Source of the DNA: Lachnospiraceae bacterium
GTDB lineage: Bacteria > Bacillota > Clostridia > Lachnospirales > Lachnospiraceae
NCBI GenBank assembly: GCA_017465845.1
Contig: JAFTVH010000127.1
Coordinates: 1 to 40,840, forward strand
Direction: 5' to 3'
DNA length: 40,840 nt
Shown: positions 8,609 through 28,665 of the stretch, piece by piece
Position numbering within the stretch: position 1 is the stretch's first letter
Layout of the letters: every line of letters begins with the position of its first letter
The notes under the pieces: generated by a model
What the model saw: the letters and a program-made list of their open reading frames with translations, nothing else
Told to the model about the DNA's origin: nothing
Databases searched by the model: none
Translations under genes and position numbers: made by a program

Positions 8609-8643
8609 GAAAGAACCACCCATTGAAATAAGGTGGTTCTTTC
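8609..8643 (-). terminator. Strong hairpin between the binding lipoprotein and the two-component genes
   Basis: Perfect 12-bp inverted repeat (GAAAGAACCACC at 8609-8620, complement at 8632-8643, 11-nt loop) in the gap between the lipoprotein stop (8680) and the YesN start. On the minus strand the U-rich part is within the stem end rather than after it, so termination may be partial, allowing some read-through into the two-component genes. Confidence 0.65.
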
Positions 8644-8679: not shown

Positions 8680-10302
8680 TTATCTTCCAAGGAATTCATC
8701 AACTTGTGCATTAAAATCATCCAAAACTTTCTGCAGTCCGGCTGCTTCCAACTTGTCTACAAACTCATCGATATATTTATCAACCTCTTCTCCATAAATA
8801 CCATAACGAAGAGAATTGATATACTCTGTATGTAAAGTCTTAATCTGTGCAAGCTCATTTTCAACATTTGAAGTATCTAATGTCATCCCCATCAGAGGGC
8901 TAAGAGTATTATTGTCATTTTCATTAATCTCATTAATGATAAAGTCTTCCTGTTCCTGTGTCATACTCTGATTCAGCCATGCATTGAAAGTATTACCTCC
9001 AATCCATTTCCAATAACAGTATGTAGTATCTGCACCACCCTGTGTTCCGGAGAATTCTAATGTCTTAATAGTACCATCCCCATTAGCTTCATAGTGAATT
9101 CCTTCAATACCATATGCTAATGTATTATAGATTTCTTCATACTTAGAGTTGAATAACAATGCTATTACTTTTGCAGCATCTTCCGGATATTCTGTAGTAG
9201 CAGAAATCGCAACACCACCTGCTGCATTTTTCTCAGGAATATAGAAACTATCTTCCATAGCGAATACTGTGCAATCGTATCCATAACTATTTTCAAATTG
9301 CTCCTCCGCCATTTCTACAGAACCCATGCCCTGAGCTCTGAAAATCACATAGGATTCATCATTAAAAATATCTCCAAGTACATTAGTAGTAATCTTATCT
9401 ACAATCTGATTCGGATAATTCAATCCCTCTACGTACCACTCCGCTTCTTTTCTCCAGGCATTCTGGATATCCTCATTTAAGTAAGTACATTCAATTTTTC
9501 CTGTTTCAAGGTTATAGTAAAATCTTTCAGCACTGGTTACGTCATAGCATGAATTAGATGAATCAGTCCAGTTATATGGATAAGAAAACATACTTGGATA
9601 AAGCCACTTGGTATCCTTACCGGTATACTCACGTACAGCAAGTACATAATCCTCTGTGAATTGTGCTAATTTATCAAAATCCCTATCTAAAAGCGCGTTC
9701 TGTACTTCCTCATATGTATAACCACTCTGTTCAAACCACTCTGTAGGAGTAACCCAGAAATACTGGTTTGCCATCTGCTGGTAATTAGGAATTATATAGG
9801 TAACACCGTCCATGGTTCCCAGAGTTGTAAACCATTCCGGAAGTTCTTCTGTTATCTCCGGATTTCCTGCGATCAAATCATCCAGCGGAAGAATGGAACC
9901 ATTAACTGCCTCAGCTGTCCAACTTAAATTTACAGTTGACAAAACATCGATCTGTTCCCCTGAAGACTGTGCCAATGCAATATCTGTAGCATAATCCTTG
10001 CATGGATGCAGCTTCAAAGTAATATGCTCATAACCTTCTGTTTGCGCCAAAATCTCATTAATCTTAGCCTCTACCTCATCTGTGTACTCCTGCACACCCA
10101 CATTATTTTTGTACCAATAAGTAATTTCTACAGGGTCTTTCGGCTCTTCCTTTTCTTCAGATGCTTCAACACTCGTCTTCTCTTCCTGCGACGCTGTTGA
10201 TGTGCTTTCTGATTCCTTGGGCGCAGTCGTGTCATTACCACATGCCACCAGCGACAGCGTCATTGTCGTTGCGCATAAAAGCGCTAAAATTTTTTTGTGC
10301 AT
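8680..10302 (-). CDS. Sugar ABC transporter substrate-binding lipoprotein (first importer)
   Basis: About 540 residues. Signal peptide with lipobox LVAC and lipidation at Cys21, then a Ser/Glu-rich linker and a family 1 extracellular solute-binding domain resembling the large LplA-type proteins. Start at 10302 is supported by AAGGAG 7 bp upstream; an earlier ATG at 10320 lacks a site. It captures oligosaccharides outside the membrane for the two permeases encoded upstream (LplB-like then LplC-like). Unlike the second importer, the binding protein here is the last gene of the transport unit and is followed by a hairpin. No ATPase gene is nearby; such importers commonly share a distant MsmX-type ATPase (known for the class, inferred here). 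Confidence 0.92.
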   Translation of the reverse strand: MHKKILALLCATTMTLSLVACGNDTTAPKESESTSTASQEEKTSVEASEEKEEPKDPVEITYWYKNNVGVQEYTDEVEAKINEILAQTEGYEHITLKLHPCKDYATDIALAQSSGEQIDVLSTVNLSWTAEAVNGSILPLDDLIAGNPEITEELPEWFTTLGTMDGVTYIIPNYQQMANQYFWVTPTEWFEQSGYTYEEVQNALLDRDFDKLAQFTEDYVLAVREYTGKDTKWLYPSMFSYPYNWTDSSNSCYDVTSAERFYYNLETGKIECTYLNEDIQNAWRKEAEWYVEGLNYPNQIVDKITTNVLGDIFNDESYVIFRAQGMGSVEMAEEQFENSYGYDCTVFAMEDSFYIPEKNAAGGVAISATTEYPEDAAKVIALLFNSKYEEIYNTLAYGIEGIHYEANGDGTIKTLEFSGTQGGADTTYCYWKWIGGNTFNAWLNQSMTQEQEDFIINEINENDNNTLSPLMGMTLDTSNVENELAQIKTLHTEYINSLRYGIYGEEVDKYIDEFVDKLEAAGLQKVLDDFNAQVDEFLGR

Positions 10303-10393
10303 AACAAATCTCCTTTTCATTTTAAATTTTTATATCTTCATACATTCTTTATATTCCTCCCGTATAAAGAATGTACAAAATACCGTAATGAAG

Positions 10394-11272
10394 TTATCCT
10401 TTTACTGAACCAATTGTCAGCCCTTTTGCAAAATATTTCTGGAAAAATGGAAATACAAATAACATCGGTCCGGCTAACACAACAGCCATCGCAAATCTAA
10501 GACTTTCCAAATTCTTCAAAGATTCTTCCAATCCTGCAATCGTTCCGTTTGCCAACATTTCCTGTAAATATGCCACATCATCCAGAATTACCTTCAGTAT
10601 ATACTGTAAAGAATACAAATCCGGCTCACGAACATAAATTGAACAAGTATACCAATCGTTCCAATGATTGATAAATGCCAGAAAACCTACAGATGCCAAC
10701 GCAGGCGTTGCCAACGGTATAACAATCTGAAAACAGATTCTAAGTTCAGATGCTCCATCAATACGCGCTGCCTCGTACAAACTATCCGGCAGTCCCTGGA
10801 AAAAGGTTCTGAGAACAATAACATTCCACGCATTCATTAAGGATGGCAGAATATATATCCATATCGTATTGTTTAAATGGAGCAGTTTGGAATTTACCAG
10901 ATAGGTAGGTACCAGCCCCCCATTAAACAAGGTGGTAAAAAACAGTAAAAACGTCAGAACATTCCGATACTTAAAATCTCTCTTGGATATTGCATAGGCA
11001 AACAATGTCATGACTACCAGTGATCCAAATGTAGCACTTACTGAATAGAAGGCAGTCACTCCATATCCTTTCAATATCTTTGCAGGGTTGGCAAATACCT
11101 GCCTGTAGGCATCCAACGTGAACTCTTGAATTCTCAAGCTAAATTGCGGATTTGACGCCCCCTCAAAGGAAGCCGTAACCAGTATCAGCAATGGATAAAT
11201 ATAACAGATGCACAGCAAAATAAAAAACACATGAAGAGCAATCTGTCCAGCGGAAATCTTTTTCTTCTTCAT
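10394..11272 (-). CDS. Carbohydrate ABC transporter permease, LplC/YtcP-like (first importer)
   Basis: Inner-membrane permease of about 292 residues with six predicted membrane helices. The cytoplasmic EAA loop reads YEAARIDGASELRICFQIV, the ATPase contact site. It ends in the family-typical FFQKYFAKGLTIGSVKG. Start set at the ATG at 11272: the upstream GTG at 11284 is itself part of the AGGAGGTG ribosome binding site. It follows the LplB-like gene closely and precedes the binding lipoprotein by about 90 bp. Confidence 0.93.
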   Translation of the reverse strand: MKKKKISAGQIALHVFFILLCICYIYPLLILVTASFEGASNPQFSLRIQEFTLDAYRQVFANPAKILKGYGVTAFYSVSATFGSLVVMTLFAYAISKRDFKYRNVLTFLLFFTTLFNGGLVPTYLVNSKLLHLNNTIWIYILPSLMNAWNVIVLRTFFQGLPDSLYEAARIDGASELRICFQIVIPLATPALASVGFLAFINHWNDWYTCSIYVREPDLYSLQYILKVILDDVAYLQEMLANGTIAGLEESLKNLESLRFAMAVVLAGPMLFVFPFFQKYFAKGLTIGSVKG

Positions 11273-11287
11273 TTTCTTATGCACCTC

Positions 11288-12253
11288 CTAAAACATACTG
11301 TTTTCCGGGCTTACTTTGCGTACAATAGCATTTGTTACTACTACAAGCACAAAACCCACTGCTGATTGAAAAAGACCTACAGCAGCCGATCTGGCAAGTT
11401 CTCCGCCCAGCAAGGCTCTGTATGTATATGTATTGATAATATCTGTAGCATCATATAATAGGCCAATGTTTCTCGGCACTTGATAGAACAGTCCAAAGTC
11501 ACCTGAGAACAGATTTCCAATGCCAAGTATAGTCATCATTACCATAATCGGAACTAACTCCGGGATCGCTACATGCCAAGCCTTCTGCACAGCGCTGGCA
11601 CCATCGATTTCAGCCGCTTCAAAAAGCGTCGGATCTATACCGGTCAGTGCAGCATAGTAATACAGGCAACCTGCACCAATAGATTTCCAAATGTATACAA
11701 TTGACAAGATAGCGGGCCAATACTTAACTTCGCTGTACCAACTAATTCCTTCTCCGCCAAAGAATGTAATGATTTGATTGGCTAAACCTGCACTAGGACT
11801 CAGAACTGCATAAACCAAAAAGGAAATAATTACAACAGACATAAAACGCGGAAACAATATAACTGTATGATATATTTTTAATCCTATTTTGCTTTTCAGA
11901 TTATAAAGCAGTACTGCAATCAATACCCCCAAAACCAAATCCAGTACCAGGAATTCCACACTATACAATACTGTATTTCGAATCGTTCTCACAGCATCCT
12001 GGCTGCCGAAAAAAAACTTAAAGTTATCCAATCCATTCCAGTTACTTCCAAAAATCCCTTTGATTGGTACATATTTTTTAAAGGCAATTGCAATACCAAA
12101 CATCGGAAGATACTTAAATATAATAAGACATGCTAATCCCGGCATACACAACATCAACAGCATAAAATTATACTTTCTCTTTGCAGTAACCTTACTCTGC
12201 GAGGGCTGTGACTTTGCCACGGCAACCTGACTCATTTTCTTTTTTTCAAACAC
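11288..12253 (-). CDS. Carbohydrate ABC transporter permease, LplB-like (first importer)
   Basis: A 321-residue permease with six predicted membrane helices, a charged N-terminal extension, and the EAA loop FEAAEIDGASAVQKAWHVAIP. The start is GTG at 12253 with AAAGGAG 10 bp upstream; an in-frame ATG lies at 12235. It is the first gene of the second importer/enzyme module in this locus and lies directly behind a promoter carrying the putative YesN direct-repeat operator. Pairs with the next gene to form the heterodimeric channel. Confidence 0.92.
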   Translation of the reverse strand: MFEKKKMSQVAVAKSQPSQSKVTAKRKYNFMLLMLCMPGLACLIIFKYLPMFGIAIAFKKYVPIKGIFGSNWNGLDNFKFFFGSQDAVRTIRNTVLYSVEFLVLDLVLGVLIAVLLYNLKSKIGLKIYHTVILFPRFMSVVIISFLVYAVLSPSAGLANQIITFFGGEGISWYSEVKYWPAILSIVYIWKSIGAGCLYYYAALTGIDPTLFEAAEIDGASAVQKAWHVAIPELVPIMVMMTILGIGNLFSGDFGLFYQVPRNIGLLYDATDIINTYTYRALLGGELARSAAVGLFQSAVGFVLVVVTNAIVRKVSPENSMF

Positions 12254-12282
12254 TTTGACATCTCTCCTTTCAACTTGATTAA

Positions 12283-12311
12283 ATTATACTAAACTGTCTA
12301 TACACTGTCAT
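12283..12311 (-). promoter_or_regulatory. Promoter of the first importer operon
   Basis: Minus strand: -35 ATGACA (12311-12306), 17-bp spacer, perfect -10 TATAAT (12288-12283), about 30 bp before the GTG start of the LplB-like gene. The weak -35 and the direct repeats 7 bp upstream suggest an activator-dependent promoter. Confidence 0.78.
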
Positions 12312-12318
12312 TCATCAC

Positions 12319-12347
12319 TTTTGTGTCATTTACACAGTTTTTGTGTC
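12319..12347 (-). promoter_or_regulatory. Direct-repeat operator, probable YesN/AraC-type binding site
   Basis: Two copies of the 9-mer TTTTGTGTC (+ strand 12319-12327 and 12339-12347; GACACAAAA on the transcribed strand) exactly 20 bp apart. The proximal copy ends 7 bp upstream of the -35 box. The same arrangement recurs at 24691-24719. Two half-sites in direct orientation about two helical turns apart is the normal binding mode of AraC-type regulators. Confidence 0.75.
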
Positions 12348-12351
12348 TGCT

Positions 12352-13041
12352 TTAAACATCTGCCCAGTTTTTCAGCAATTTCTTAGTCATATCCCACCAT
12401 GTTTGTGCCAATATATAGTTTCCCGCAGCAGTCAAATGGATGCAATCTAAAGTCAGCTGTTCTACCGGTATACGTTCCTGAGCCTTTATCAACATATCCC
12501 AGAAAGGAACATACATAGTATGATACTTTTCTGAAATCTTCTGTATGATCTCTCCCCTGCGTTTCATTTCACTACTCCAGATATTCCAGTCCACATAGAT
12601 GTCATTCTTCCACTCCGTAAAATAAACGGTATTCGTGAGATTCTTTCGCAGTATAAATGGTTGTCCCAATACAATCACTGCATTCGGATGACTTTCCACG
12701 GCTTCATAGATCATTCTGTCATATATAAACTCAAACCTCTTTGCATCTGAACCAATGCCCATACGAATACCAAAACCAATGTCATTGATACCGGACAGGA
12801 AGCTGAGCATATCAAATTTAATATTTAATGTATCCTCCTGCCATCTCCCGTAAATATCAGCAATTCTATTGCCTCCTACACCTTTATTCATTACATCGAT
12901 CCACGGATATTCACTCCCAATTTTTCCTGCCAGCATAGTCACAAATCCATGCCCAAGAGAGCTATTTGCTTCTTTTATATTCCTGTTTCTCCCCGCATCA
13001 GTAATAGAATCTCCCTGAAATAAAATTAATTTTCTATCCAT
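12352..13041 (-). CDS. SGNH/GDSL-family hydrolase (esterase), third of three
   Basis: About 229 residues, cytoplasmic. Block I is FQGDSITDAG with catalytic Ser12; block II has GVGGNR; block III is LSGINDIG; block V is LDCIHLTAAGN with the catalytic Asp-His pair. This set matches bacterial carbohydrate acetyl-esterases and rhamnogalacturonan-acetylesterase-like enzymes. Start at 13041 is supported by GAGGA 7 bp upstream; the frame is open further upstream over the zinc-ribbon gene, but without a better site. It is the last gene of the unit starting at 24630. Likely removes acetyl groups from imported oligosaccharides; the exact ester is inferred. Confidence 0.88.
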   Translation of the reverse strand: MDRKLILFQGDSITDAGRNRNIKEANSSLGHGFVTMLAGKIGSEYPWIDVMNKGVGGNRIADIYGRWQEDTLNIKFDMLSFLSGINDIGFGIRMGIGSDAKRFEFIYDRMIYEAVESHPNAVIVLGQPFILRKNLTNTVYFTEWKNDIYVDWNIWSSEMKRRGEIIQKISEKYHTMYVPFWDMLIKAQERIPVEQLTLDCIHLTAAGNYILAQTWWDMTKKLLKNWADV

Positions 13042-13054
13042 ATCGTCGTCCTCA

Positions 13055-13261
13055 CTATTTTTTCTCAAAGTACCGTTTAACGATATACTTGTTTTTAAGG
13101 AAAGTCTGCATTTGCTCATTTACTTTTTTCAAATCACCGCAAAAGCAGCATTTGTAACAATAGAACTCATCTTTTTCATCATCATAAAGCAGAAACACAT
13201 CCATATCCTTTGCAAAACAGTGAGGACAACGGATTAATCTGCCCGTTTTATTCTCAAACAT
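13055..13261 (-). CDS. Small zinc-ribbon-like protein of unknown function
   Basis: A 68-residue protein with paired cysteines typical of a zinc ribbon: CPHC (Cys12, Cys15) and CYKCCFCG (Cys35, Cys38, Cys39, Cys41). The ATG at 13261 has a strong AAGGAGAGGAG site 8 bp upstream and overlaps the 3' end of the deacetylase-like gene by 28 bp, which favours a real, translationally coupled gene. It lies 13 bp before the SGNH gene. No function is assignable; zinc ribbons of this size can bind nucleic acid or partner proteins. Confidence 0.68.
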   Translation of the reverse strand: MFENKTGRLIRCPHCFAKDMDVFLLYDDEKDEFYCYKCCFCGDLKKVNEQMQTFLKNKYIVKRYFEKK

Positions 13262-14970
13262 GTTCTTAACTCCTCTCCTTTTTTCATGATTCTTTTAGCA
13301 GAAAGTGTTATAAACGGACTAAAAAGGAAGCCCTCCTCTGCCTTGCCATTTACATCATCGGACAAAATACTCATCTCGATTGCAGTACCAATCTGCGGAT
13401 AAACTGCTTCCAGCACTTTAGCATCAGCTTTGTACAATTCTTTTCCCCCATAGCGATACTCAAGTTCCTCCGTATCTTCTGCATCTTTAATACGCAGTTT
13501 ACATCCCCGCAGATCTCCCTGATACTGTGTCGTTCCGAAACAGGTTCTGTCATACTCCTCAAATGTAACTTCAGCATTTTCATCACTTACATCTAACAAA
13601 CGTCTTGTGATCAGCATACCGCCCATACCATCAAATTCAATAACACTCTCAAAAGTTACCTTTATACCGTCTGACTTTACTGTTACAGGCGTAATATTTA
13701 TTTTAGCATTTCCTTCGGCAATAAAGCTTGTCCGTTTCAGAGCCACGCAATATTCTTTTTTGTTAATATATATTTTCAGTGTATGTAAGGAACCGCCATG
13801 CACACCGCCTCGCATCTCTGCTGATATTATATATGGCTGATTCATATCATATAAATTAGGTGTATCCGGCCCTGTATCCTTATTAATCCTTCCTGCATAT
13901 GGTCTTAAATCGCAAATGGCACCACCGATGTTTCCATCGAAGCATACACGCATCATAGGATCAATATACCAGTACATCTGACGATCAGTGCCACAAATAA
14001 TATCTCTCCAGTTGTTTACTTCAGGGGTTCCAATTTCAATGTTCTCCGTATACCATTCGCCAAATTCTGACATGGTCATGATTGAAACTCTGTCTTCTGA
14101 TATCTTTTTTTTCAAATATTCCATATTTTCGTCATACAGCTTTATACTCAGACTACCGGGCTCATCCAGCATCGTATTATCAGTCATCCAAATAGGACTT
14201 ACAAATATGTTATAATATCCAAAACTATTATAATGAAGCTGCTCCAGCCACATATCAATAAAATCAAAGGTATAAGGGCACTCCCCGGTTTCCAAATCAT
14301 AAGCCTTTGCTCTCACTACATTAGCAACATGTCCGGAAAACAAGTCATCCCTGGATGTTATAGTCATCAACATATCTCTGTTCAAATGAGGAAGACCTAC
14401 GATTCCACAATATTCCTCCTTATTTGCAGCCGGAATCAATGAATTTTTCTTCGATGGGTAATACGCCCCCCATGGACCTCCATCACTAAACAGATGCCAC
14501 ATGTTTTGATTTCCGGCAAACATTTTTATACCTTCTTCAAAGCAATTTGTAATTGCAGCTTTTACACAAGGATAATTTTCATGAATAAAATTCAATGTAC
14601 GGGCATCCAAAATATATGCTGCAACCGCTTTGGGATAGTATCCGAAAACTTCAAAAAACTTCTCAAAGTACTTTACAATTATCTGCTTTCTTATTTCAAA
14701 ATCAATAAGCCAAATTTTTCCTTCTCTTATTCCGTACGACTTTTTAGTTTGTACATCAACAGCATGAAGACTCAACGCTATCTCATCTCCATACATGTCA
14801 TGTTCCTGTTTAATAAGGCGAATCGTATCATCCGAATTAAAACCTTCCGGGCGCAACAATATGGTTGTCTTTATATTATTTTTGTGACATATTTGTTGCT
14901 GTTTCATAAAAGGTTCTGTATCATCTGCACCTACACGATGTATCACATTTACATACATTTTAGGCTTCAT
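13234..14970 (-). CDS. Large protein with a polysaccharide-deacetylase-like (NodB-like) N-terminal region
   Basis: About 578 residues, no signal peptide. The first 300 residues alternate strands and helices in a pattern like a (beta/alpha)7 deacetylase barrel: MYVNVIHRVGADD, then TTILLRPEG, IALSLHAV and YPKAVAAYILDARTL. The C-terminal half is beta-rich, resembling an all-beta accessory domain as found on sugar-active enzymes. I cannot place the metal-binding triad with certainty, so activity is not proven. Start at 14970 is supported by GGGAGG 9 bp upstream; an ATG at 14979 directly abuts that site. It follows the giant surface protein and overlaps the zinc-ribbon gene. A role on acetylated or otherwise substituted oligosaccharides fits its esterase neighbours. 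Confidence 0.5.
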   Translation of the reverse strand: MKPKMYVNVIHRVGADDTEPFMKQQQICHKNNIKTTILLRPEGFNSDDTIRLIKQEHDMYGDEIALSLHAVDVQTKKSYGIREGKIWLIDFEIRKQIIVKYFEKFFEVFGYYPKAVAAYILDARTLNFIHENYPCVKAAITNCFEEGIKMFAGNQNMWHLFSDGGPWGAYYPSKKNSLIPAANKEEYCGIVGLPHLNRDMLMTITSRDDLFSGHVANVVRAKAYDLETGECPYTFDFIDMWLEQLHYNSFGYYNIFVSPIWMTDNTMLDEPGSLSIKLYDENMEYLKKKISEDRVSIMTMSEFGEWYTENIEIGTPEVNNWRDIICGTDRQMYWYIDPMMRVCFDGNIGGAICDLRPYAGRINKDTGPDTPNLYDMNQPYIISAEMRGGVHGGSLHTLKIYINKKEYCVALKRTSFIAEGNAKINITPVTVKSDGIKVTFESVIEFDGMGGMLITRRLLDVSDENAEVTFEEYDRTCFGTTQYQGDLRGCKLRIKDAEDTEELEYRYGGKELYKADAKVLEAVYPQIGTAIEMSILSDDVNGKAEEGFLFSPFITLSAKRIMKKGEELRTCLRIKRAD

Positions 14971-15037
14971 ATTTATCATCCTCCCACTTTTGCATTCCAC
15001 TTGACAGGGTGTATTATCAGTTTTCTTCAAAATGGTT

Positions 15038-15074
15038 CCAGGCAGCATATTCTAAGAATTACTGCCTGGTTTTT
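15038..15074. terminator. Terminator-like hairpin after the giant surface-protein gene
   Basis: Perfect 8-bp arms CCAGGCAG (15038-15045) and CTGCCTGG (15062-15069), 16-nt loop, followed on the + strand by TTTTT. On the minus strand, the direction of transcription here, only a weak AACCATTTT follows. It lies 18 bp past the giant gene stop, so it may be a partial terminator or mRNA-stabilising hairpin for that gene. Confidence 0.55.
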
Positions 15075-15086
15075 GCTAACTGGTTA

Positions 15087-18000
15087 TTAAAGTTTTTCGT
15101 TTTCTTTGCTTCTTTTAAGTCTCCAAATACATACCATCATACCAACCGCTGCCAGTACCATTATCCATAATGCAAGATTACGACTGTCTCCGGTCAGTGC
15201 TACTTTCTCAATTTCTGTCGGCACATTCGTGTCATCTGTTGCCTCCTCAGAATCTGATCTTGAATCTTCACTTGATTCTTCCTCCGACTCTTGACTTCGA
15301 TCTCCCTCAGGAGTCTGACTTGACTCTCCCTCAAGTCCCTGGCTTGGTTCCTCCTCAGGGGTCTGGTTTGGTTCCTCTTCAGGGGTCTGGTTTGGTTCCT
15401 CTTCAGGTTCCTGGCCTGGTTCCCCCTCAGGTTCCTGGCCTGGTTCCTCCTCAGGTTCCTGGCTTGGTTCCTCCTCAGGTTCCTGGCCTGGTTCCTCCTC
15501 AGGGGTCTGACTTGGATTTTCCTCAGGTTCAGTGTCCGGTACAGAATTCACAGCCTTACCGCCCAAAGTATATATAGTCTGCTCTGTATGCAATGCAACT
15601 ACATAAGGCGTTCCGCCATCCATTTTTTGAAGGTCATTATTCTGAATCTGTATTGTGATTTCATCTCCAACCCATGGACTCTTATTGGTTACTCCTACTG
15701 CTTCCGTTAAAGGTAATGTCATCTCTATAACATATCCATTAACCTGTGTTTGTGAAGTAGAGGCCAACTGTCCTGTCCCAGGATTATTAATGGTATAATT
15801 TTCAATAATACTTCCATTGTAGGTAAACGCTGTTGCATATGGCAGACTTTGATGGTACTCAAGGCTGACTCCGTTATCGCCGTAGCGCTGTATACCAAAA
15901 GCATCTACAGCAAACTTTGTCATCAATACACGTCCGTCTCTGATGGTGGTCTTGAGCCAGAATTCCAATACATCTGATTTCCAAAGTGTATTTGGATTCT
16001 TCTGGCTGAGAATATCGCTGCCCAGACTCATTACAGTAGATTCATCAATCACCGCATAGCAGTAAAGGTATGTCTGATCCCACAATAAGTAGCAGTAACC
16101 TGTCAGATCAGATGTTGGGTTCCCGCTTGAAGGATAAAATATAGTACCAACATCAACCTTACAGCTATCTTTATATATATCATCTATAATACCATCTACA
16201 ACAGGTGTACCATATGCGATAGTAGTAGGTCCTGCTACCAACTCAGGTACTTCTGATTCCGGTCTTTGATTCGGAGTTACTGGACTCCCTCCTTCAGCAC
16301 TTGTTTCTACAGTAATAGAACGTGGATAACTTTCCGTACGTCCTGTATTGTCTTCCACCTCAAAACCAATTACGGAGGATGATAAACTGGTGGTAAGCGA
16401 ATCTTTATCCGTCGCTGTCAGGGTAATAGTCACAATGCCCGATTCTCCCACAGCCAATGTCAGACCATTATTCGAATATGTGGCCTGCAAGCCATCCGGT
16501 AATGCATCTTTCATAGTCAACGTATAAGATTTTTCACCATCTGAATTGTTGGTCAGTTTTACATTAACCTGTGTTTCACCTGTATTTCTGTCAACCACAT
16601 AATGCACGGTGCTATCTGCTATCTGAAGTGCCACATTCATTGGATCAGCCACATTTGCGTATGAACTTTCGACACCTGCATTAGCCATAATTGCAAGAGC
16701 TTCCTCGCACAACTTACTTCTGTCTTCTACCATTACATTATTTACAAGTTGAATATTTCTGCTTGCAGCCGCACTGGTAGTAATCTCACTTGCTGTAGTA
16801 AAATTATTTTCTACCAGAATATTATGAGTATACTGATTTACGACATCATCCTGGAAGAACATCGGCCCTTTAGACGAAACCAAATCGTCAATTAAATTAT
16901 GATAAGTATGCCAGTTAGAAGCACTTCCATCATGATAAATGCCGGTAAAAGTTCTATTATAAGCGCTTGGTCTTATATAGTTATCGTGAATGGAATTAAA
17001 ATACTCTGTAGAGTTAGATACAAAGTCATTCGCACCATTCGTGTAAATAGCTCCGCCATCATTCAATGCATACATATAATCTTCTATATGATTGTAGGCT
17101 ATTTCAGCATTAATGAGACACTTATTAATATCGTCATCATTATCTTCCTCTGCTCTTACGACAAATCCCCAGCCCGCTGCAATAGCTGTATAAGGAGCGT
17201 GAATAATCGTGTTGTGCAATATCTCCAGGTTCTTACTTCTGGCCACTCTGATACCGGGTGCATTTAAAATGGCCATACCTACATTAGAAATATAATTATT
17301 CGAAATAGTAACATCTATACTATTTCCTTGCAGACCATCCTCGCACCAGCGTCTCTGCTGAACACCTATACTTATACCGGCCAGTCCGATATCTGTAACA
17401 CTGTTTCCAATAATCTGAAGATCATCAATGCCATAATTAAAGAGCATAGCATGTCCACCTAACTGAGTGAAAGTACAATTCTGTATCCTTACTCCATCTG
17501 CATAATTACCAAGAATCGCTGCACAGGGAATATTTGTACCCGGATCACCCTGACCACGGGAATTAAGTAGCCCGGAATTATATGTACATCCCTGACAGGA
17601 AGCCAGCCCATTATTTGTAAGCCAATTGAATGTCGTTCCTGTAAATACGATACCGTCAAAAGTGATATTTGCTGCATTTTCAATTTCGATAAGCGTTTCC
17701 AAAGCAGGATACTCTACAACGATCGTCTTTATATTCTGGTCAGTATACGGATAGTAATAGATAACACCATTTGCTTCATCATAGTAGAATTCACCCGGCT
17801 CATCCAGAAAACTTATATGATTCTGCAGCCAGTATTCATTTCCCTCCTTTGCATCAGAAATGCCACTGCTGACAGTAGATGTATATTCCACTGTCAGTGG
17901 TGTCAAACCATCTTCTGCAGTGCCAATTTCGGTAAAGTGGAATACTCGGCTGTTCCACTTATATTTATAACCAATTTCCAATCTGCCGATATTACTGTTG

Positions 18001-21000
18001 TTGATATCTTTTGTCAATTCATCCGCCACATACAATTGAACTGTTTGCGTACCATCCTGATTATCCGTTGCTGCCGCATCCGCTTCGAAAAGATACGTAT
18101 CTGTTCTGGCAAGTATCGCAAGTTCTCCATTTACCAAAAGATTACGGAACTGTGGATATTTGCCTTGCACCTTTGCACTTTCAGGCAGCTGGTAACTGTA
18201 ATATTCCTTACCATCAACCTTTTTTAAACCACCTTGTTCTATCTCAACAGCACCAGTAATCACAGGAGACTCATCATTATAATTTTTAAAAGTCACTCGA
18301 TCGTATGATGTCTCTGTTGTTCCCAACTCTAATGTTTCTGCCAAAACATACTTACCACCCATCAAATATACATTTATATTGATGTGAGGTGTCGCTGCCA
18401 CTAATTCAGCAATCTTTTCCTTAGCCTCTTCCAATGTTCGTAACGGCTTTTCAAGAGAACCATTTCCCTCCAGTTCAGCATTTGGATTTACGTATATATC
18501 TGCACTTGTCAGTTCTCCCGCATTAAAAGTAACCATTACAATAGTCGAGCCTGTAATAATAAATTCGTACAAATTATTATTCAATTCCTTTAATTCAATA
18601 TTTTCCTGGTTTTTCGTAATGCTCTCAACTGTACAGCTATTACCTGGAGTACATGTCAAACGAACCGATGTGCCAGAAGGCAATTCACCGGATGTATAGT
18701 CAACATATTCAGACTCATTTGGAAGTTTTACCATAGTGGAAACAGTACCCATAAGTGCAGAATTTGATGACACCTCTAAAGTGTATCCACCAAATACTAC
18801 CTCTATTTCTGTTGATTCTGTCAATGTAAAATCGTATATGCCATTTGCAAGATTGTTTAAATCTATGTTCTTACCATTTACGGTGATGCTTTCAATGAAG
18901 TAACCATTATTTGGAGTACATTCCAAACGGACAGATGTGCCGCCCGCCAATGCGGAAACAGTTGTATACTCACTATATTCTGAGGAATCAGGTGTCTTTA
19001 CTTGTGTTTTCACTGAACCCAAATCATTATATGTTACTTCCAACGCATATGCAATTCCTGCCGACTCATCAGTAGGGACAGGATACTCACCATCGCTTAA
19101 TGTTTGTAATGCCCAGGTATTTAGTATATCTGTATCAAGAGCGGCATTCATAGCAGACGCATTCTTATTCAATGTATTAACAAATTCTGCTGATTTTATC
19201 TCAGCAGCTGATTTTTCCGTGCCCAGTGTTGTTGTAGTCGCAGTTACTCCATCCGGTATATTAACAAAACCTGACATCCAATAACAGTTTTCCAAATCCT
19301 GTCCTTTGGCTCCGGCTATCAGACTTCCGACTTTTATGGTTCCGACGCTGCCTTCTTCAATGCAAACCATTCCCGAATTATAAAAATTCTTGACCGACGT
19401 AGTATAATCCCCACTGTTTGAAGCAGTAGCAACCAGACCACCTACCTGTAATGTCTTTCCGCTAATCTCATTTTTACCTGTTATATCTCCGGTATTAGCA
19501 CAGTTTAAAATTTCTACATTCGTATTTTGAAGGAAACCAGTAAAACCACCTACGCGGACTGTACCTCCCTTGTTCGTGGCAGTTACTGAGCTGTTATTTA
19601 GGCAGTTGATCATTCGCATAGTCTCATCTGCTCCTCGTATATAGCCAATAAGACCACCCACATAATTATACGGACCTGCTCCTACAACATTAACACTGCC
19701 AGAAACAACCTTACAGTTGTTAATTGTAGCAGCACTGGCTGCACCTGCGATGATTCCCACATATAAAGATTCTGTATAAGTAAGATCAATATTCGCATTT
19801 GCAAAATTGACATTTTGGACTACAGCCCCAGCTTGCAGCTCATCAAAAAATCCCACATATGATAAAGACACATTTTTAATGGTAAGTCCGCTGATAGTCG
19901 CACCATTACCATCAAAATTACCGGCAAATTTAGAAATCGGTATCCACTCCTGATCAGACAGATCAATTAAACTTACGCCCTCTTTTACCTTAAAGTATTT
20001 ATCATCAGTCAGTTCTACAGTATTATAAGCCACAGACATCAGGGCCAGATCTTCTGCATCAGAAATAATATATGGATCATCCATCTTTCCACTTCCGGAC
20101 AATGTTTTTGAATCACCATTTTCATCCTCATAGTCATCATATTGAATTTCCTTTAATACAGGCGCCCCACCCTCTGAAGGAATTTCCCACATTGCAAAAT
20201 CTAAATCAGAATATATTTCTTCTAATTTCAAATTGCTGACATTCGTATTTAACAGACCAGCAAAATCTTCAGACTGTACTTCTGTCTGTGGCTTTTCAGT
20301 CCCCAGTGTTGTTGTAGTCGCAGTTACTCCATCCGGTATATTAACAATACCTGACATCCAATAACAGTTTTCCAATGTATGACCCTTGGCTCCGGCTATC
20401 AGACTTCCTACCTTTATTGTTCCGATGCTGCCTTCTCCAACACTTATTATTCCAGAATTGTAAAAATTCTTGACTGATGTAGTGAACCCAGTGTTTGAAG
20501 CAGTAGCAACCAGACCACCTACCTGTAATGTCTTTCCGCTAATCTCATTTTTACCTGTTATATCTCCGGTATTAGCACAGTTTAAAATTTCTACATTCGT
20601 ATTTTGAAGGAAACCAATAAAACCACCTACGCGGACTGTACCTCCCTTGTTCGTGGCAGTTACTGAGCTGTTATTTAGGCAGTTGATCATTCGCATAGTC
20701 TCATCTGCTCCTCGTATATAGCCAATAAGACCACCCACGTAATTATACGGACCTGCTCCTACAACATTAATACTGCCAGAAACGACCTTGCAGTTGTTAA
20801 TTGTAGCAGCGCTGGCTGCACCTGCGATGATTCCCACATATAAAGATTCTGTATAAGTAAGATCAATATTTGCATTTGCAAAATTGACATTTTGGACTAC
20901 AGCCCCAGCTTGCAGTTCATCGAAAAAGCCCACATATGATAAAGACACATTTTTAATGGTAAGTCCGCTGATAGTCGTACCATTACCATCAAAATTACCG

Positions 21001-21434
21001 GAAAATTTAGTAATCGGTATCCATTCATGAGCAGACATATCAAGTAATGTGACACCATCTGCTACCATAAAATAATCACTTACATACTCTGAAGAAGTAT
21101 CCTCCGCTAACACTTTAGCCATATAAGCTAACTGAGCTTCTGTTTTGATAATATACGGATCGTTCTCCGTACCTATTCCGCCCTCAAAAGCAGTTGCTAC
21201 ATTACCATCATCAACCCAGTAACTAATCGCATTCGTAGTCATTACTCCATTTTCACTGACAGTCTGCATTTCTGCTGTAGAATTCACGGAATCATCATCT
21301 GTGTCCGCTGCATGAACTGTGATACCAGTGAGTGGTAAGGCTGAAAAGTAAACGAGAAATGCCATAAAAAGAGCTATAACACTTTTTACCGAATGAATTT
21401 CCAGCCACCCTTGTGATTTCATTTTCTTGTCCAT
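15087..21434 (-). CDS. Giant surface-anchored multidomain protein with right-handed beta-helix (GH141-like) core
   Basis: About 2115 residues. Start at 21434 is chosen for AAAGGAG 8 bp upstream (an earlier ATG at 21452 has no good site). A signal peptide ends near VHAAD. Then: two near-identical blocks of about 243 residues with GLUG-like repeats (for example VGGLIGYIRG) at about 137-379 and 496-739; two InlB-like beta repeats (about 790-968); a large right-handed beta-helix region (about 978-1600) opening DIYVNPN and containing DGGAIYT, resembling GH141-type enzymes; an Ig-like domain; a CBM9-like domain (VDGIIDDIYKD onward, about 1738-1958); a Glu/Pro-rich stalk of 8-residue repeats; and a C-terminal LTGDSRN motif, membrane helix and basic tail like a sortase signal. 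Likely the surface binding and cleaving component. The hydrolase family and catalytic residues are inferred. Confidence 0.8.
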   Translation of the reverse strand: MDKKMKSQGWLEIHSVKSVIALFMAFLVYFSALPLTGITVHAADTDDDSVNSTAEMQTVSENGVMTTNAISYWVDDGNVATAFEGGIGTENDPYIIKTEAQLAYMAKVLAEDTSSEYVSDYFMVADGVTLLDMSAHEWIPITKFSGNFDGNGTTISGLTIKNVSLSYVGFFDELQAGAVVQNVNFANANIDLTYTESLYVGIIAGAASAATINNCKVVSGSINVVGAGPYNYVGGLIGYIRGADETMRMINCLNNSSVTATNKGGTVRVGGFIGFLQNTNVEILNCANTGDITGKNEISGKTLQVGGLVATASNTGFTTSVKNFYNSGIISVGEGSIGTIKVGSLIAGAKGHTLENCYWMSGIVNIPDGVTATTTTLGTEKPQTEVQSEDFAGLLNTNVSNLKLEEIYSDLDFAMWEIPSEGGAPVLKEIQYDDYEDENGDSKTLSGSGKMDDPYIISDAEDLALMSVAYNTVELTDDKYFKVKEGVSLIDLSDQEWIPISKFAGNFDGNGATISGLTIKNVSLSYVGFFDELQAGAVVQNVNFANANIDLTYTESLYVGIIAGAASAATINNCKVVSGSVNVVGAGPYNYVGGLIGYIRGADETMRMINCLNNSSVTATNKGGTVRVGGFTGFLQNTNVEILNCANTGDITGKNEISGKTLQVGGLVATASNSGDYTTSVKNFYNSGMVCIEEGSVGTIKVGSLIAGAKGQDLENCYWMSGFVNIPDGVTATTTTLGTEKSAAEIKSAEFVNTLNKNASAMNAALDTDILNTWALQTLSDGEYPVPTDESAGIAYALEVTYNDLGSVKTQVKTPDSSEYSEYTTVSALAGGTSVRLECTPNNGYFIESITVNGKNIDLNNLANGIYDFTLTESTEIEVVFGGYTLEVSSNSALMGTVSTMVKLPNESEYVDYTSGELPSGTSVRLTCTPGNSCTVESITKNQENIELKELNNNLYEFIITGSTIVMVTFNAGELTSADIYVNPNAELEGNGSLEKPLRTLEEAKEKIAELVAATPHININVYLMGGKYVLAETLELGTTETSYDRVTFKNYNDESPVITGAVEIEQGGLKKVDGKEYYSYQLPESAKVQGKYPQFRNLLVNGELAILARTDTYLFEADAAATDNQDGTQTVQLYVADELTKDINNSNIGRLEIGYKYKWNSRVFHFTEIGTAEDGLTPLTVEYTSTVSSGISDAKEGNEYWLQNHISFLDEPGEFYYDEANGVIYYYPYTDQNIKTIVVEYPALETLIEIENAANITFDGIVFTGTTFNWLTNNGLASCQGCTYNSGLLNSRGQGDPGTNIPCAAILGNYADGVRIQNCTFTQLGGHAMLFNYGIDDLQIIGNSVTDIGLAGISIGVQQRRWCEDGLQGNSIDVTISNNYISNVGMAILNAPGIRVARSKNLEILHNTIIHAPYTAIAAGWGFVVRAEEDNDDDINKCLINAEIAYNHIEDYMYALNDGGAIYTNGANDFVSNSTEYFNSIHDNYIRPSAYNRTFTGIYHDGSASNWHTYHNLIDDLVSSKGPMFFQDDVVNQYTHNILVENNFTTASEITTSAAASRNIQLVNNVMVEDRSKLCEEALAIMANAGVESSYANVADPMNVALQIADSTVHYVVDRNTGETQVNVKLTNNSDGEKSYTLTMKDALPDGLQATYSNNGLTLAVGESGIVTITLTATDKDSLTTSLSSSVIGFEVEDNTGRTESYPRSITVETSAEGGSPVTPNQRPESEVPELVAGPTTIAYGTPVVDGIIDDIYKDSCKVDVGTIFYPSSGNPTSDLTGYCYLLWDQTYLYCYAVIDESTVMSLGSDILSQKNPNTLWKSDVLEFWLKTTIRDGRVLMTKFAVDAFGIQRYGDNGVSLEYHQSLPYATAFTYNGSIIENYTINNPGTGQLASTSQTQVNGYVIEMTLPLTEAVGVTNKSPWVGDEITIQIQNNDLQKMDGGTPYVVALHTEQTIYTLGGKAVNSVPDTEPEENPSQTPEEEPGQEPEEEPSQEPEEEPGQEPEGEPGQEPEEEPNQTPEEEPNQTPEEEPSQGLEGESSQTPEGDRSQESEEESSEDSRSDSEEATDDTNVPTEIEKVALTGDSRNLALWIMVLAAVGMMVCIWRLKRSKENEKL
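15264..15526 (-). repeat. 24-bp tandem repeat encoding a Glu/Pro-rich wall-spanning stalk
   Basis: About eleven imperfect copies of a 24-bp unit encoding EEEPGQEP-type octapeptides (variants EEEPSQEP, EEEPNQTP, EGEPGQEP, EEESSEDS). Located just before the sorting-like signal of the giant protein, it would form an extended acidic spacer. Copies become more divergent toward the C-terminal end. Confidence 0.9.
19216..19945 (-). repeat. Large internal duplication in the giant gene, copy 2 (C-terminal copy)
   Basis: About 730 bp nearly identical to 20296-21022, with an offset of 1080 bp that becomes 1077 bp because of a 3-bp length difference near 19409. It encodes the second GLUG-type block. Confidence 0.9.
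20296..21022 (-). repeat. Large internal duplication in the giant gene, copy 1 (N-terminal copy)
   Basis: Partner of 19216-19945. Only scattered substitutions separate them, many silent, suggesting a recent duplication or ongoing gene conversion. It encodes the first GLUG-type block. Confidence 0.9.
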
Positions 21435-21468
21435 CACCTGTTCTCCTTTCATAATCTCTTTATTTTTT

Positions 21469-21490
21469 AACGTAAAATTACCGTTACGTT
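21469..21490. promoter_or_regulatory. Inverted repeat between SGNH gene and giant gene
   Basis: Perfect 7-bp arms AACGTAA and TTACGTT separated by 8 bp, in the 61-bp gap before the giant gene start. No U-run follows in either direction, so a terminator is unlikely. It may be an operator or an mRNA hairpin; no function can be assigned. Confidence 0.4.
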
Positions 21491-21495
21491 CTCAA

Positions 21496-22119
21496 TTATT
21501 TTAATTCCTCAAACGCCTTCAACCATTCTCTTTTTATGATTTCATGCCCCATAGTTGTTGGATGTACACCATCTTTTAACCAGTATTCAGCCGAACATTT
21601 CCTTTCAGCCTCATCAAACTTATCCTGCAAAGGAATAAATTTCAGATGATACTTTTCTGCTATTTCTTTCGATTTTTTTGCTCTTGCTTCGACCTCTGAA
21701 TGGAACCGTTCCCACTCCGCTGCCGTTGCCGATCCCTTCAGCACAAAAGGTTCCAGTATCATAATCTTCACTTCCGGCAATGCACTTTGAATTTCCTCAA
21801 TCAGCATGGAATAGATCTTGAAGTACTTTTCTGTATCTACTCCATCTTCCCTGGTAATCTCGCTCCAAATATCATTTACTCCAATCAAAATACTTAAGAT
21901 ATCCGGTTTTAAATTAATGATATCAGCTTTGATTCGGGCATACACATCAACTACTCTGTTTCCACCGATCCCTCGGTTAAGAAATTCATATTTTCCGGGT
22001 TCGTCCGCACCGAGCACACCGGTTACAAGTAACGGATATCCTTTTCCCATATTTGCAGGATTCTCTCTTGCACGCCCTGCATCTGTTATGGAATCTCCCT
22101 GAAATAATATTCTTTTCAC
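21496..22119 (-). CDS. SGNH/GDSL-family hydrolase (esterase), second of three
   Basis: A 207-residue cytoplasmic esterase-like protein with a complete SGNH set: FQGDSITDAG (Ser10), GIGGNR, LIGVNDIW and the Asp-His pair in KDGVHPTTMGH. Similar in sequence and size to the protein at 12352-13041, suggesting paralogues acting on different acetylated positions. The start is GTG at 22119 with GAGGG about 9 bp upstream, only 2 bp after the preceding stop codon, so it is co-translated with the previous SGNH gene. Confidence 0.9.
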   Translation of the reverse strand: MKRILFQGDSITDAGRARENPANMGKGYPLLVTGVLGADEPGKYEFLNRGIGGNRVVDVYARIKADIINLKPDILSILIGVNDIWSEITREDGVDTEKYFKIYSMLIEEIQSALPEVKIMILEPFVLKGSATAAEWERFHSEVEARAKKSKEIAEKYHLKFIPLQDKFDEAERKCSAEYWLKDGVHPTTMGHEIIKREWLKAFEELK

Positions 22120-22121
22120 TC

Positions 22122-23222
22122 TTATTTGCCCTCACTCTCTTTTAAACAGTTTCTTAAAACAGGTATAAGAGCCTCCGCCCATATCCTGCATCCTGCTTCA
22201 TTCGGATGCCCGCCATATTTCGCTTTTCCTTGCTCTTGCGGATCATCTGTCAGAAGAGGCGCTATATCAAATACGGCGTCCACATAAGCGGATAATGTAT
22301 TTCTGATATAATGATTTATATTTATCCATTTTTTCAGATTTTCATCTTTCCAGCTAAAAGGAGGTAGCGTCTGAAGCAGCACTTTCGTTCCGGCTCCTTT
22401 TAGTTTTAAGACGATAGATAATAAATCTTTTTTGATTGCCTCTTCATCCCTTTGCTTTCCGATATCATTGGTACCATATCCTAATACGACCCAGTCCATA
22501 TGCTTGGCCTTGAACAGCCATGCGCCATCACTTGCTGCGTCTTGAGCCCGTCCGAATCCAAGTCCCAGATTCCAGTATGCATATTGATCTCCCATGCTTT
22601 CTGCAACTAATGCGCACCAATGAGAATATGCATTATTGGGCGTACCAATCCCCTGTGTTATCGAATCACCCATAAATCCGATTTTTCCATGCACACTTCT
22701 GTCACATCCTATCATTCCGGGAAACGGCAGATTACAGGATGGCTCCCAATGCTCTCCATCCCAGACAAAAGCCGGTAAAATACTCTGTTCATGTGATGGA
22801 ATCATTGTTCCTCGAAATGTTATCTCCACACATAAATATTCATTCTTTTCTGCCGAAATCTCAATGGAATCCGAAACAAAAAATTCACCCGGCATCACAT
22901 CTTTGTTTTCTTTCCCCTGAAATGTCAGCACTTGAATTTCTTCCGGGGTAGTGGCAGTATGTGCATCACATTCTTTACAAACTCCTACAGTAGCTTTTAT
23001 CAGCTGCCACTCATCACAGATCATGTTGCAGCAGCTTTTTTCACCATCTGCATAAGTACTGTCCAGAATATTGGAAAACAATAAGGAATATCGGTACCTG
23101 CCGCCTGCAAAAATCTTGTAATAAACACGTCCCTTATGTACCACATCATCTCCTGTTAAAAAACATGATTGATTGCCGCTTCCTGCTAACGTATTGGATG
23201 AATATGTATTAAACCAGTTCAT
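22122..23222 (-). CDS. Two-domain SGNH hydrolase, possibly CE2-like carbohydrate esterase
   Basis: A 366-residue protein without a signal peptide. The N-terminal 170 residues look like a beta-sandwich; the C-terminal part is an SGNH domain with GFMGDSITQG, NLGLGFGRA, LGYGTNDIG and GGHPNEAG. The position that normally carries the catalytic Asp before the His is Gly here (YGGHP instead of DxxHP), so the enzyme may rely on a Ser-His dyad. A beta-sandwich plus dyad SGNH domain recalls the CE2 acetyl-esterase family, but I cannot confirm that family. Start ATG preceded by GGGAG. Sits between the BNR protein and the second SGNH gene in a tightly packed operon. Confidence 0.82.
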   Translation of the reverse strand: MNWFNTYSSNTLAGSGNQSCFLTGDDVVHKGRVYYKIFAGGRYRYSLLFSNILDSTYADGEKSCCNMICDEWQLIKATVGVCKECDAHTATTPEEIQVLTFQGKENKDVMPGEFFVSDSIEISAEKNEYLCVEITFRGTMIPSHEQSILPAFVWDGEHWEPSCNLPFPGMIGCDRSVHGKIGFMGDSITQGIGTPNNAYSHWCALVAESMGDQYAYWNLGLGFGRAQDAASDGAWLFKAKHMDWVVLGYGTNDIGKQRDEEAIKKDLLSIVLKLKGAGTKVLLQTLPPFSWKDENLKKWININHYIRNTLSAYVDAVFDIAPLLTDDPQEQGKAKYGGHPNEAGCRIWAEALIPVLRNCLKESEGK

Positions 23223-23241
23223 GCCTCATTCTCCCAGCTAA

Positions 23242-24630
23242 TTACAATTTTCTGAAATCCTTGATTCTGTGGAAAGTAGAATAATTTGAATCATGATAGT
23301 TGTGTGCATGATTCATCGCTGTCCTGCAAAGGAAAATAATATCCTCTCCATCAAAAGAAAAATCCACATACTGAAATCCAATTCTTTTGGGATCCACATC
23401 TCTGTAATCCAGGATATCTGTTATAACTTCCCAGTTTTCCATATCATAAGAGCCCATTAATGATAACAAATTACGATTACCAATTCCTATATCAGATATG
23501 ATTCTGCTTGCAACGGAATAATAACGTTTGGACACTTCATCATACTTCCACATAAATTTAGAGCGATTCGCCGGGAATGCAGAAGTATGAGAATATTCTA
23601 ATGGAGCATCAGGATTCTCTGTATTCACGCGATACTGAATCACCAGACCATATGTCGGTTCCGAATCCGGTGTAGTCATATACCTCATCACATTCATCAG
23701 CTGTCCCGCGGGATTTACACAAAGCGTTCCCTCTAAATTACCCTGCACAGACCCACGGGCTGTGCCATTCCATTTAGAATCATAAAGCAATGGCGGTGTA
23801 AAATGCCAGTTTTCAGCCTTTAGCAAGTCATCATTTTCATCACATGACATGACCATTGCAGCATGCTTATGTGAAGTATTCCATGTCCCCCATTCCAGTG
23901 TTTCATAAAGTCTTCCACTGTGATAAACGATGTTCTGGGGATTTTTGTGAATTCCGGCAATTTTGTTGCTGCCGGAACCACGCAGCAGCACTGTCGGAGT
24001 CGTAAATGTGCGTCCTTTATCTGTGGACTTTCCAATCAGAAGATCCCCATATTCTGTTGAAACCGCGAGCATATAAAGCTCTCCTTTATGAAGAAACATC
24101 TTGCCCCAAAAGCACGGCATAAGTTCACTTACATAATGCCAGGTCTCTCCATTATCATCAGAACGATAAATCATTGTCAGATTCTGAGGCGCATTTCCTT
24201 CAAATATATCCATAGCAGCTAAAAGGCATCCATCCGGATATTTCACCAACGATGGTGAAGCTAAATAATTTCCCGAAAAACTATATGCCTTATCGTCCGG
24301 ATGTAAGTAATTCACAACAGTCCCAACTGCCTTTCCCGTTCTTGCCAAACGGATACGGCTCTTCTTGTTTCCCGATGTAACATAAAATTCGTAATCTCTT
24401 TTTTCTGCCAGATTCTCTATGGTGTACGCATTTTCTTTTGTTGTACCACAGCAAACAAACTCACTGCTTTCCTTTTCCCTCAAGAAAACTGCATATTCTG
24501 ATCCCGTCTCTCCCAACCATTCAAAATGAATGTTATCGACACCGGGTGCAATACGGCAGATATAGATATCCCCCGTTTCAAACAAAAATGGTTTATATGG
24601 TGCGTATGACCATCCGTTATATCCCTTCAT
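23242..24630 (-). CDS. BNR/sialidase-superfamily beta-propeller protein
   Basis: A 462-residue cytoplasmic protein with an N-terminal fibronectin type III-like region (about 1-95) and a six-bladed propeller. Asp-box-like motifs are visible at RSDDNGETW and KSTDKGRTF. The arginine triad and Asp/Tyr/Glu set of true sialidases are not evident to me, so it may be another glycosidase or lyase on the same fold. First gene of the unit transcribed from the putative YesN-controlled promoter at 24655-24683; ATG preceded by AAGGAGG. Absence of a signal peptide points to action on imported oligosaccharides. Confidence 0.7.
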   Translation of the reverse strand: MKGYNGWSYAPYKPFLFETGDIYICRIAPGVDNIHFEWLGETGSEYAVFLREKESSEFVCCGTTKENAYTIENLAEKRDYEFYVTSGNKKSRIRLARTGKAVGTVVNYLHPDDKAYSFSGNYLASPSLVKYPDGCLLAAMDIFEGNAPQNLTMIYRSDDNGETWHYVSELMPCFWGKMFLHKGELYMLAVSTEYGDLLIGKSTDKGRTFTTPTVLLRGSGSNKIAGIHKNPQNIVYHSGRLYETLEWGTWNTSHKHAAMVMSCDENDDLLKAENWHFTPPLLYDSKWNGTARGSVQGNLEGTLCVNPAGQLMNVMRYMTTPDSEPTYGLVIQYRVNTENPDAPLEYSHTSAFPANRSKFMWKYDEVSKRYYSVASRIISDIGIGNRNLLSLMGSYDMENWEVITDILDYRDVDPKRIGFQYVDFSFDGEDIIFLCRTAMNHAHNYHDSNYSTFHRIKDFRKL

Positions 24631-24654
24631 CTTCAGCCTCCTTATTTCTGTTTC

Positions 24655-24683
24655 ATTGTCGCAATAAATTACTTAAAAGTCAT
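24655..24683 (-). promoter_or_regulatory. Predicted activator-dependent promoter of the esterase/surface-protein operon
   Basis: Minus strand: -35 ATGACT (24683-24678), 17-bp spacer, poor -10 GACAAT (24660-24655). The geometry relative to the upstream direct repeats is the same as at 12283-12311. The weak -10 fits strong dependence on an activator, but its assignment relies on that comparison. Confidence 0.55.
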
Positions 24684-24690
24684 TCCATAA

Positions 24691-24719
24691 TTTTGTGTCT
24701 TTTGCATGGTTTTTGTGTT
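24691..24719 (-). promoter_or_regulatory. Direct-repeat operator, probable YesN/AraC-type binding site
   Basis: TTTTGTGTC at 24691-24699 and TTTTGTGTT at 24711-24719 on the + strand, exactly 20 bp apart, 7 bp upstream of the predicted -35. Same sequence, spacing and placement as 12319-12347. Confidence 0.75.
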
Positions 24720-24731
24720 CATTTTTACATC

Positions 24732-24773
24732 AAAAAAACAGCCTGTTTTCATCTCTGAGAACAGACTGTTTTT
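24732..24773 (-). terminator. Terminator after the lactonase-like gene
   Basis: Long hairpin with about 15-bp arms containing one mismatch (AAACAGCCTGTTTTC against GAGAACAGACTGTTT), followed on the minus strand by TTTTTTT. Just 10 bp past the stop codon of the metallo-hydrolase gene, it ends the metabolic operon and insulates the YesN-type promoter downstream. Confidence 0.88.
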
Positions 24774-24782
24774 ATCACTTTT

Positions 24783-28589: not shown

Positions 28590-28654
28590 TTGATGAAAAT
28601 ATTATGTTTGGAATCTAATCATATTTTAAGATGGAAAGCGGCTATTTTCATCAA
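28590..28654. promoter_or_regulatory. Long-range perfect inverted repeat upstream of enolase-superfamily gene
   Basis: TTGATGAAAATA (28590-28601) and its exact complement TATTTTCATCAA (28643-28654), centres 53 bp apart (about five helical turns), flanking the likely promoter region of the gene starting at 28574. The proximal arm abuts the ribosome binding site. Candidate paired operator for a looping regulator, or a leader RNA stem. Confidence 0.5.
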
Positions 28655-28665
28655 CTATGTTACGG

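Follow-up and report, generated by a model that had tools for sequence, protein, structure and literature searches.

We examined a 40,840-nucleotide stretch of Lachnospiraceae bacterium DNA (contig JAFTVH010000127.1; hereafter the window) that contains a carbohydrate-use gene cluster in which two promoters carry matching pairs of short repeats. The genes concerned all lie on the minus strand and, judged from gene spacing and strand, fall into two operons. Operon 1 begins with an importer (importer 1) and contains yesN and yesM, which encode a response regulator and its sensor kinase; operon 2 encodes a BNR-repeat-like protein, GDSL esterases and a giant protein. Here we describe the repeat pairs and weigh the case that YesN binds both.

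Two promoters with matching tandem repeats

The doublet RACACAAAA-N11-RACACAAAA occurs at 12319-12347 and at 24691-24719, with a half-site period of 20 bp. In gene direction (minus strand), site 1 reads GACACAAAA-ACTGTGTAAAT-GACACAAAA-GTGATGA-ATGACA-N17-TATAAT, and site 2 reads AACACAAAA-ACCATGCAAAA-GACACAAAA-TTATGGA-ATGACT-N17-GACAAT. Both lie 7 bp ahead of a -35-like ATGAC(A/T) box, with the core ending 30 bp ahead of the -10, and both have the form of an operator, with direct half-sites about two helical turns apart just upstream of a -35-like box. Re-reading the sequence bore out the coordinates, 20-bp period, 7-bp gap and 17-bp spacer that an earlier note on this DNA had given. The -35 and -10 boxes of both promoters are predictions. 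The elements are:

12319..12347, minus strand: operator 1, GACACAAAA-N11-GACACAAAA, 20-bp tandem repeat (motif searches and reading)
12306..12311, minus strand: predicted -35-like box ATGACA, importer-1 promoter (promoter scan and reading)
12283..12288, minus strand: predicted -10 box TATAAT, importer-1 promoter (promoter scan and reading)
24691..24719, minus strand: operator 2, AACACAAAA-N11-GACACAAAA, 20-bp tandem repeat (motif searches and reading)
24678..24683, minus strand: predicted -35-like box ATGACT, operon-2 promoter (reading of the sequence)
24655..24660, minus strand: predicted -10-like box GACAAT, operon-2 promoter (reading of the sequence)

The importer-1 promoter was the best of 42 sigma-70-like matches in a scan of 11900-25000, matching at 11/12 positions; the operon-2 promoter, at 8/12 by hand count, fell below the threshold of that scan. 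Comparison of the 46-bp stretches containing the two sites revealed identity at 33 of 46 positions, each being the other's best match in the window (next best, 26/46). Besides the half-sites, some spacer positions and the sequence GAATGAC are common to both.

We determined how rare the doublet is. Allowing up to 3 mismatches, the window contains two matches, both perfect, while 100 shuffled versions had a mean of 0.21 and a maximum of 1, in agreement with the earlier note's view that a chance match is unlikely. The source draft genome (4.19 Mb, 201 contigs, 85% complete) contains 34 places at up to 3 mismatches (two at 0, none at 1, one at 2 and 31 at 3), and the backward control gave 45. The genome-wide motif search that the note had proposed, run on this draft, found the exact form ACACAAAA-N8..16-ACACAAAA at two places only, the two window sites, with none for the backward control. 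Both exact doublets of this incomplete draft are in the locus, and we conclude that the doublet is neither widespread, which the note had named as grounds for refutation, nor likely to be chance.

Near matches elsewhere in the genome were mostly within open frames. We inspected 28 of the 32 non-window places, and 21 of these fall inside open frames of at least 100 codons. At three, a -10-like hexamer (5 or 6 of 6) lies near +30; at two of them the frame is 311 or 609 codons long, and the third (L026, 3 mismatches) is in a 91-codon frame and could conceivably be a further target.

A different explanation is that the two sites have no common regulator and are either a chance likeness of A-rich sequence or what remains of a duplicated promoter. 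Chance can indeed produce repeats of this sort: when 397 family genomes were searched with up to 1 mismatch allowed, the doublet was found at 62 places, including the two window sites, and its backward control at 78 (hand sum). By the same count, we rejected the doublet as a family-wide element. However, the other 396 genomes contain only six perfect doublets, yet here two lie within 12.4 kb of each other at equal distance from a -10, and the two regions are unlike outside the operator and GAATGAC, which argues against a recent copy. We therefore consider this explanation very unlikely.

The regulator YesN and the promoters of its relatives

The genes under the two promoters, with the hairpin that precedes operator 2, are as follows:

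11288..12253, minus strand: importer 1, first permease, first gene of operon 1 (BPD_transp_1)
10394..11284, minus strand: importer 1, second permease (BPD_transp_1)
8680..10320, minus strand: importer 1, solute-binding protein with DUF3502 C-terminus (domain search)
7411..8556, minus strand: yesN, encoding a response regulator that combines a receiver and an AraC-type DNA-binding domain and is proposed to bind both operators (start ATG at 8556)
5621..7414, minus strand: yesM, sensor histidine kinase (His_kinase PF06580 and HATPase_c)
3650..5581, minus strand: heparinase II/III-like protein, presumed end part of operon 1 (identified by domain; membership presumed)
2492..3583, minus strand: glycosyl hydrolase family 88-like (GH88) protein, presumed end part of operon 1 (identified by domain; membership presumed)
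23242..24630, minus strand: BNR-repeat-like protein, first gene of operon 2 (BNR_2, below the Pfam cut-off)
22122..23222, minus strand: GDSL esterase 1 (domain search)
21496..22119, minus strand: GDSL esterase 2 (domain search)
15087..21452, minus strand: 2121-aa protein with GH141 insertion and CBM9 domains (domain search)
13234..15048, minus strand: 604-aa protein, no Pfam match (domain search)
12352..13119, minus strand: GDSL esterase 3, last gene of operon 2 (stop 4 bp before operator 1)
24734..24773, minus strand: terminator-like hairpin with T run, end of the importer-2 operon just before operator 2 (-19.5 kcal/mol, z -4.34)

As the earlier note had stated, the locus encodes a YesN-like AraC-domain regulator. 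Response_reg, HTH_18 and HTH_AraC all scored above cut-off in YesN, and D8, D9, D54 and K104 are invariant in seven sister YesN proteins, so that the receiver has its phospho-acceptor aspartate. The adjoining gene encodes a YesM-type histidine kinase, as expected for a regulator of the YesN type.

The same genome carries a paralogous set on contig C58 (G000:C58), with BLAST identities of 57% and 51% for the permeases, 39% for the binding protein, 30% for YesN and 28% for YesM. Its importer promoter contains TACAAAAC-N11-TACAAAAC at the matching place, ahead of TTGATT-N18-TATAAT. At up to 3 mismatches this doublet occurs at 62 places in the genome (control, 107); the copy at the C58 promoter is the only one at 0 mismatches, and two others are at 2.

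When a profile of seven short YesN proteins was run against the 397 genomes, nine matches reached E 1e-86 or better, after which the values dropped to 1.8e-65. By sequence, YesN is thus placed in a small clade of short AraC-type response regulators, which may be under-sampled, as the search scored four candidates per genome. One further protein (G148:C196, 2.2e-77) surfaced in a later search and was counted among the outside-clade importers below as L170, while a partial match near a contig end (G494:C81) was left out.

We read the promoters of ten clade loci. A clear repeat (8 or 9 of 9) is present at the promoter in the window (both sites), G000:C58, G000:C73, G148:C154, G148:C73 and G494:C70. 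Counted by importer, six of eight clade promoters have a clear 19-20-bp repeat at the same place, three of the six coming from one genus. Across the 11 sites that we tabulated, with cores and -10s chosen by eye, the period is always 19 or 20 bp, and the distance from the end of the core to the -10 is 30 bp at nine sites and 29 bp at two. The summed repeat score of seven non-window promoters, with the near-identical G148:C73 promoter left out, was 47, compared to a mean of 31.1 and a maximum of 40 in 2000 shuffles. A repeat of 8/9 anywhere upstream was found for seven of eight clade importers but for only 3 of 49 importers of the same type outside the clade (L209 was dropped, its upstream stretch being too short); among the eight, three are closely related to one another. 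The repeat scored in this count for G000:C88 lies away from its promoter, hence six rather than seven in the positional count.

The sister operator of genome G148 provided a further comparison. At up to 3 mismatches it occurs at five places (four perfect, one with one mismatch), all within the two sister YesN loci of that genome; the backward control gave six. One copy, C154:7080-7107 (L268), lies between a KduI-family gene and a rhamnosidase-type gene; read in the same direction as the KduI gene, it has TAAAAT 30 bp after the end of its core. In the orthologous locus of a second species, G494, we expected two copies beforehand, and this expectation held in part. The first is at the importer promoter with the same geometry. 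The second (L275:15337-15364) is beside an alpha-L-rhamnosidase gene; in the direction read it lacks a -10 at the 30-bp distance, and a different gene occupies the side where G148 has KduI. Thus, this copy may instead act on the divergent rhamnosidase gene. Between the two genomes the sister operator is conserved, and at three importer promoters of the genus it hardly varies, even as the flank upstream of it and the spacer between -35 and -10 drift. Its recurrence beside an alpha-L-rhamnosidase-type gene in two species hints at a rhamnose-containing substrate for the sister system.

Sister regulators differ at their recognition helices, as do their half-sites, in a sample too small to test a link between the two. 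A tentative generalization, which we hold to be somewhat less than an even bet, is that the short-YesN clade has a readable operator code: a 19-20-bp tandem repeat with an AC-N-AAA(C)-like half-site, its core ending 29-30 bp before the -10 and its letters changing along with the recognition helices.

In one clade locus, G148:C48 (L240:1-428), the sister YesN gene is divergent from a gene for a secreted protein weakly similar to the giant protein of the window (best E 0.023).

Other candidate binders and the case for YesN

The window encodes one other AraC-type regulator, a membrane-anchored protein (36002-38158) that could bind both sites in place of YesN, since membrane-type AraC proteins also bind direct repeats. 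However, the importer-2 promoter, its divergent neighbor, lacks the doublet; we therefore rejected it as a third target, and the promoter beside this regulator does not carry the site. Moreover, one of the two sites is at the operon containing yesN, and similar sites accompany sister YesN genes. Binding by the membrane-anchored protein is, in our judgment, highly improbable.

A different 21-bp tandem repeat (GTAATATAGTT / GTAACATAGTT) lies at 28653-28690, upstream of an enolase-superfamily gene (27231-28574). It is unique in the window, was absent from 100 shuffles, and is possibly an operator of the other AraC-type regulator. Between the GH10-like and enolase-superfamily genes there is also a strong hairpin without a T run (28733-28775; -32.3 kcal/mol for 28700-28790, z -4.59).

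A regulator encoded elsewhere might also bind, such as the longer YesN beside the importer at G000:C78, which has a promoter of the type that contains TTTGTGTCATTT. In this direction, with up to 2 mismatches allowed, the 12-mer is upstream of 9 of 57 importers, compared to a shuffle mean of 0.87 and maximum of 2, although the pattern was chosen after some cases had been seen. Operator 1 holds its reverse complement, AAATGACACAAA, but there the orientation to the promoter is opposite, operator 2 lacks the 12-mer, and only 2 of 57 importers have it in the reverse direction, versus 2.8 in shuffles. We give this explanation only a slight chance. At longer-YesN importers of several genera (L211:7200-7240, L213, L214, L215, L217 and L218), TTTGTGTCATTT lies shortly before the -10, partly as 21-bp repeats.

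The explanation that we favor, and hold to be very probable, is that both sites are activator operators of the local YesM/YesN two-component system, as the earlier note had proposed. Most sequence tests support it (the unique doublet, the C58 paralog, the clade repeats and the G494 locus), and we regard it as well supported but unproven. In this model, YesM would sense a glycan-derived signal and phosphorylate YesN, a dimer of which would occupy the two ACACAAAA half-sites, which lie on one DNA face at a separation of about two helical turns. AraC likewise uses a pair of direct half-sites, araI1-araI2, spaced by about two turns and with the proximal one adjoining the -35 box, but it is a one-component sugar-binding activator with 21-bp spacing and so differs from the YesN system. 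With 30 bp between the end of the proximal core and the -10, the downstream part of that half-site would abut a poor -35 box, where YesN would recruit RNA polymerase as AraC does at araBAD. Two transcription units would be switched on by YesN: operon 2, with the BNR-repeat-like protein, the GDSL esterases and the giant protein, and operon 1, which comprises importer 1, yesN, yesM and, presumably, the genes for the heparinase-like and GH88 proteins. Because yesN and yesM are inside operon 1, the circuit would be a self-feeding loop. The sequence itself shows the two sites, their uniqueness in the draft genome, the domains of the proteins and a like arrangement at most of the sister YesN loci; binding, phosphorylation, activation, the inducer and the operon extents are all things we infer.

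Several observations weigh against this assignment. Repeats at G381:C71 (shuffle p 0.22), G000:C88 (0.39) and G148:C272 (0.07) are weak and not significant alone, and the G148:C48 promoter has no tandem repeat. Half-site letters vary among clade members and paralogs, and a matrix trained without the window ranked the window sites 22nd and 103rd of approximately 163,000 doublets. Given these ranks, we dropped shared half-site letters as an argument for YesN; with no common word, the assignment is instead built on linkage and architecture. We found no ortholog of the window locus, so its own sites cannot be footprinted by comparison: searches for close orthologs of YesN (99 genomes, then genome contigs) and of the BNR protein (200 genomes) gave none usable outside its own genome, and a single locus from the contig search (L061, 25% identity) was not used. 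The AAATGACACAAA match makes cross-binding of operator 1 by a longer YesN possible. Finally, feedback is no rule for this type of regulator: in the portion of the report available to us, XydR, a similar regulator, does not control its own genes (PMC3572039).

The two operons may not be transcribed separately. GDSL esterase 3 stops 4 bp from operator 1, and we detected no terminator-like hairpin between them (folding z -0.29); thus, operon-2 transcripts may continue into operon 1. A hairpin at 8612-8640 (z -1.83) separates yesN from the importer-1 binding-protein gene and could hold yesN and yesM at a lower level than the importer. GDSL esterase 1 (22122-23222) has a 96% identical copy on contig C151 (10270-9182), which is downstream of a BNR copy only 46% identical to that of the window, and a further BNR copy (57%) is at C151:26999-25611. 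These copies suggest recent gene copying between loci. By eye, the promoter of the BNR paralog on C151 has no convincing doublet.

Known systems and implications

As far as the accessible portions of the reports go, this kind of system is already described: AraC-type two-component regulators have tandem-repeat sites (PMC8579813, PMC3572039), to which the locus adds a new example with a well-specified operator. In Caldicellulosiruptor bescii, tandem repeats lie upstream of promoters for AviRS, BxgRS and others, with units of 7-11 bp and a period sought at 21 or 32 bp; the sites of three of five such systems are read as activator sites, and an importer and an enzyme gene are attributed to AviRS (PMC8579813). 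As here, a local AraC-type two-component regulator stands beside an ABC importer and the repeats are in tandem, but in our case the period is 19-20 bp and the letters are different, and while the C. bescii sites are predictions with expression support, ours are prediction alone (PMC8579813).

In the Clostridium cellulolyticum system XydS/XydR, XydR shifted DNA upstream of two targets in gels, and these share CAAAA(N14)CAAAA and CAAAA(N15)CAAAA, 19 and 20 bp apart (Table 3 of PMC3572039); in the text available, the authors leave the binding site undefined (PMC3572039). Both systems thus have an AraC-type response regulator and 19- or 20-bp-spaced pairs common to two targets, but the CAAAA pair is at -39 from the -10, approximately one turn farther than here if distances are counted alike (PMC3572039). 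Pneumococcal YesN and RR07 are of the same regulator type, and their motifs were also sought by comparison; in the part of that report accessible to us, YesN has no clear repeat and the RR07 candidate, CTWWWWWWAG, is unlike ACACAAAA (PMC11034029). Our literature search, with subscription journals largely outside its reach, found no report of the operator described here.

Among Firmicutes, YesM/YesN pairs are a very common type of sugar sensor, but, to our knowledge, few of their DNA sites are known. The locus offers a precise two-site operator for one such pair and predicts that one importer and the esterase/giant-protein operon rise together, while the second importer does not. The comparison with relatives suggests that the position of the site may be foreseeable across the clade even where its letters drift. 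If the operator code is true, targets of unstudied AraC-type response regulators, including importer-plus-enzyme regulons, would be readable from sequence.

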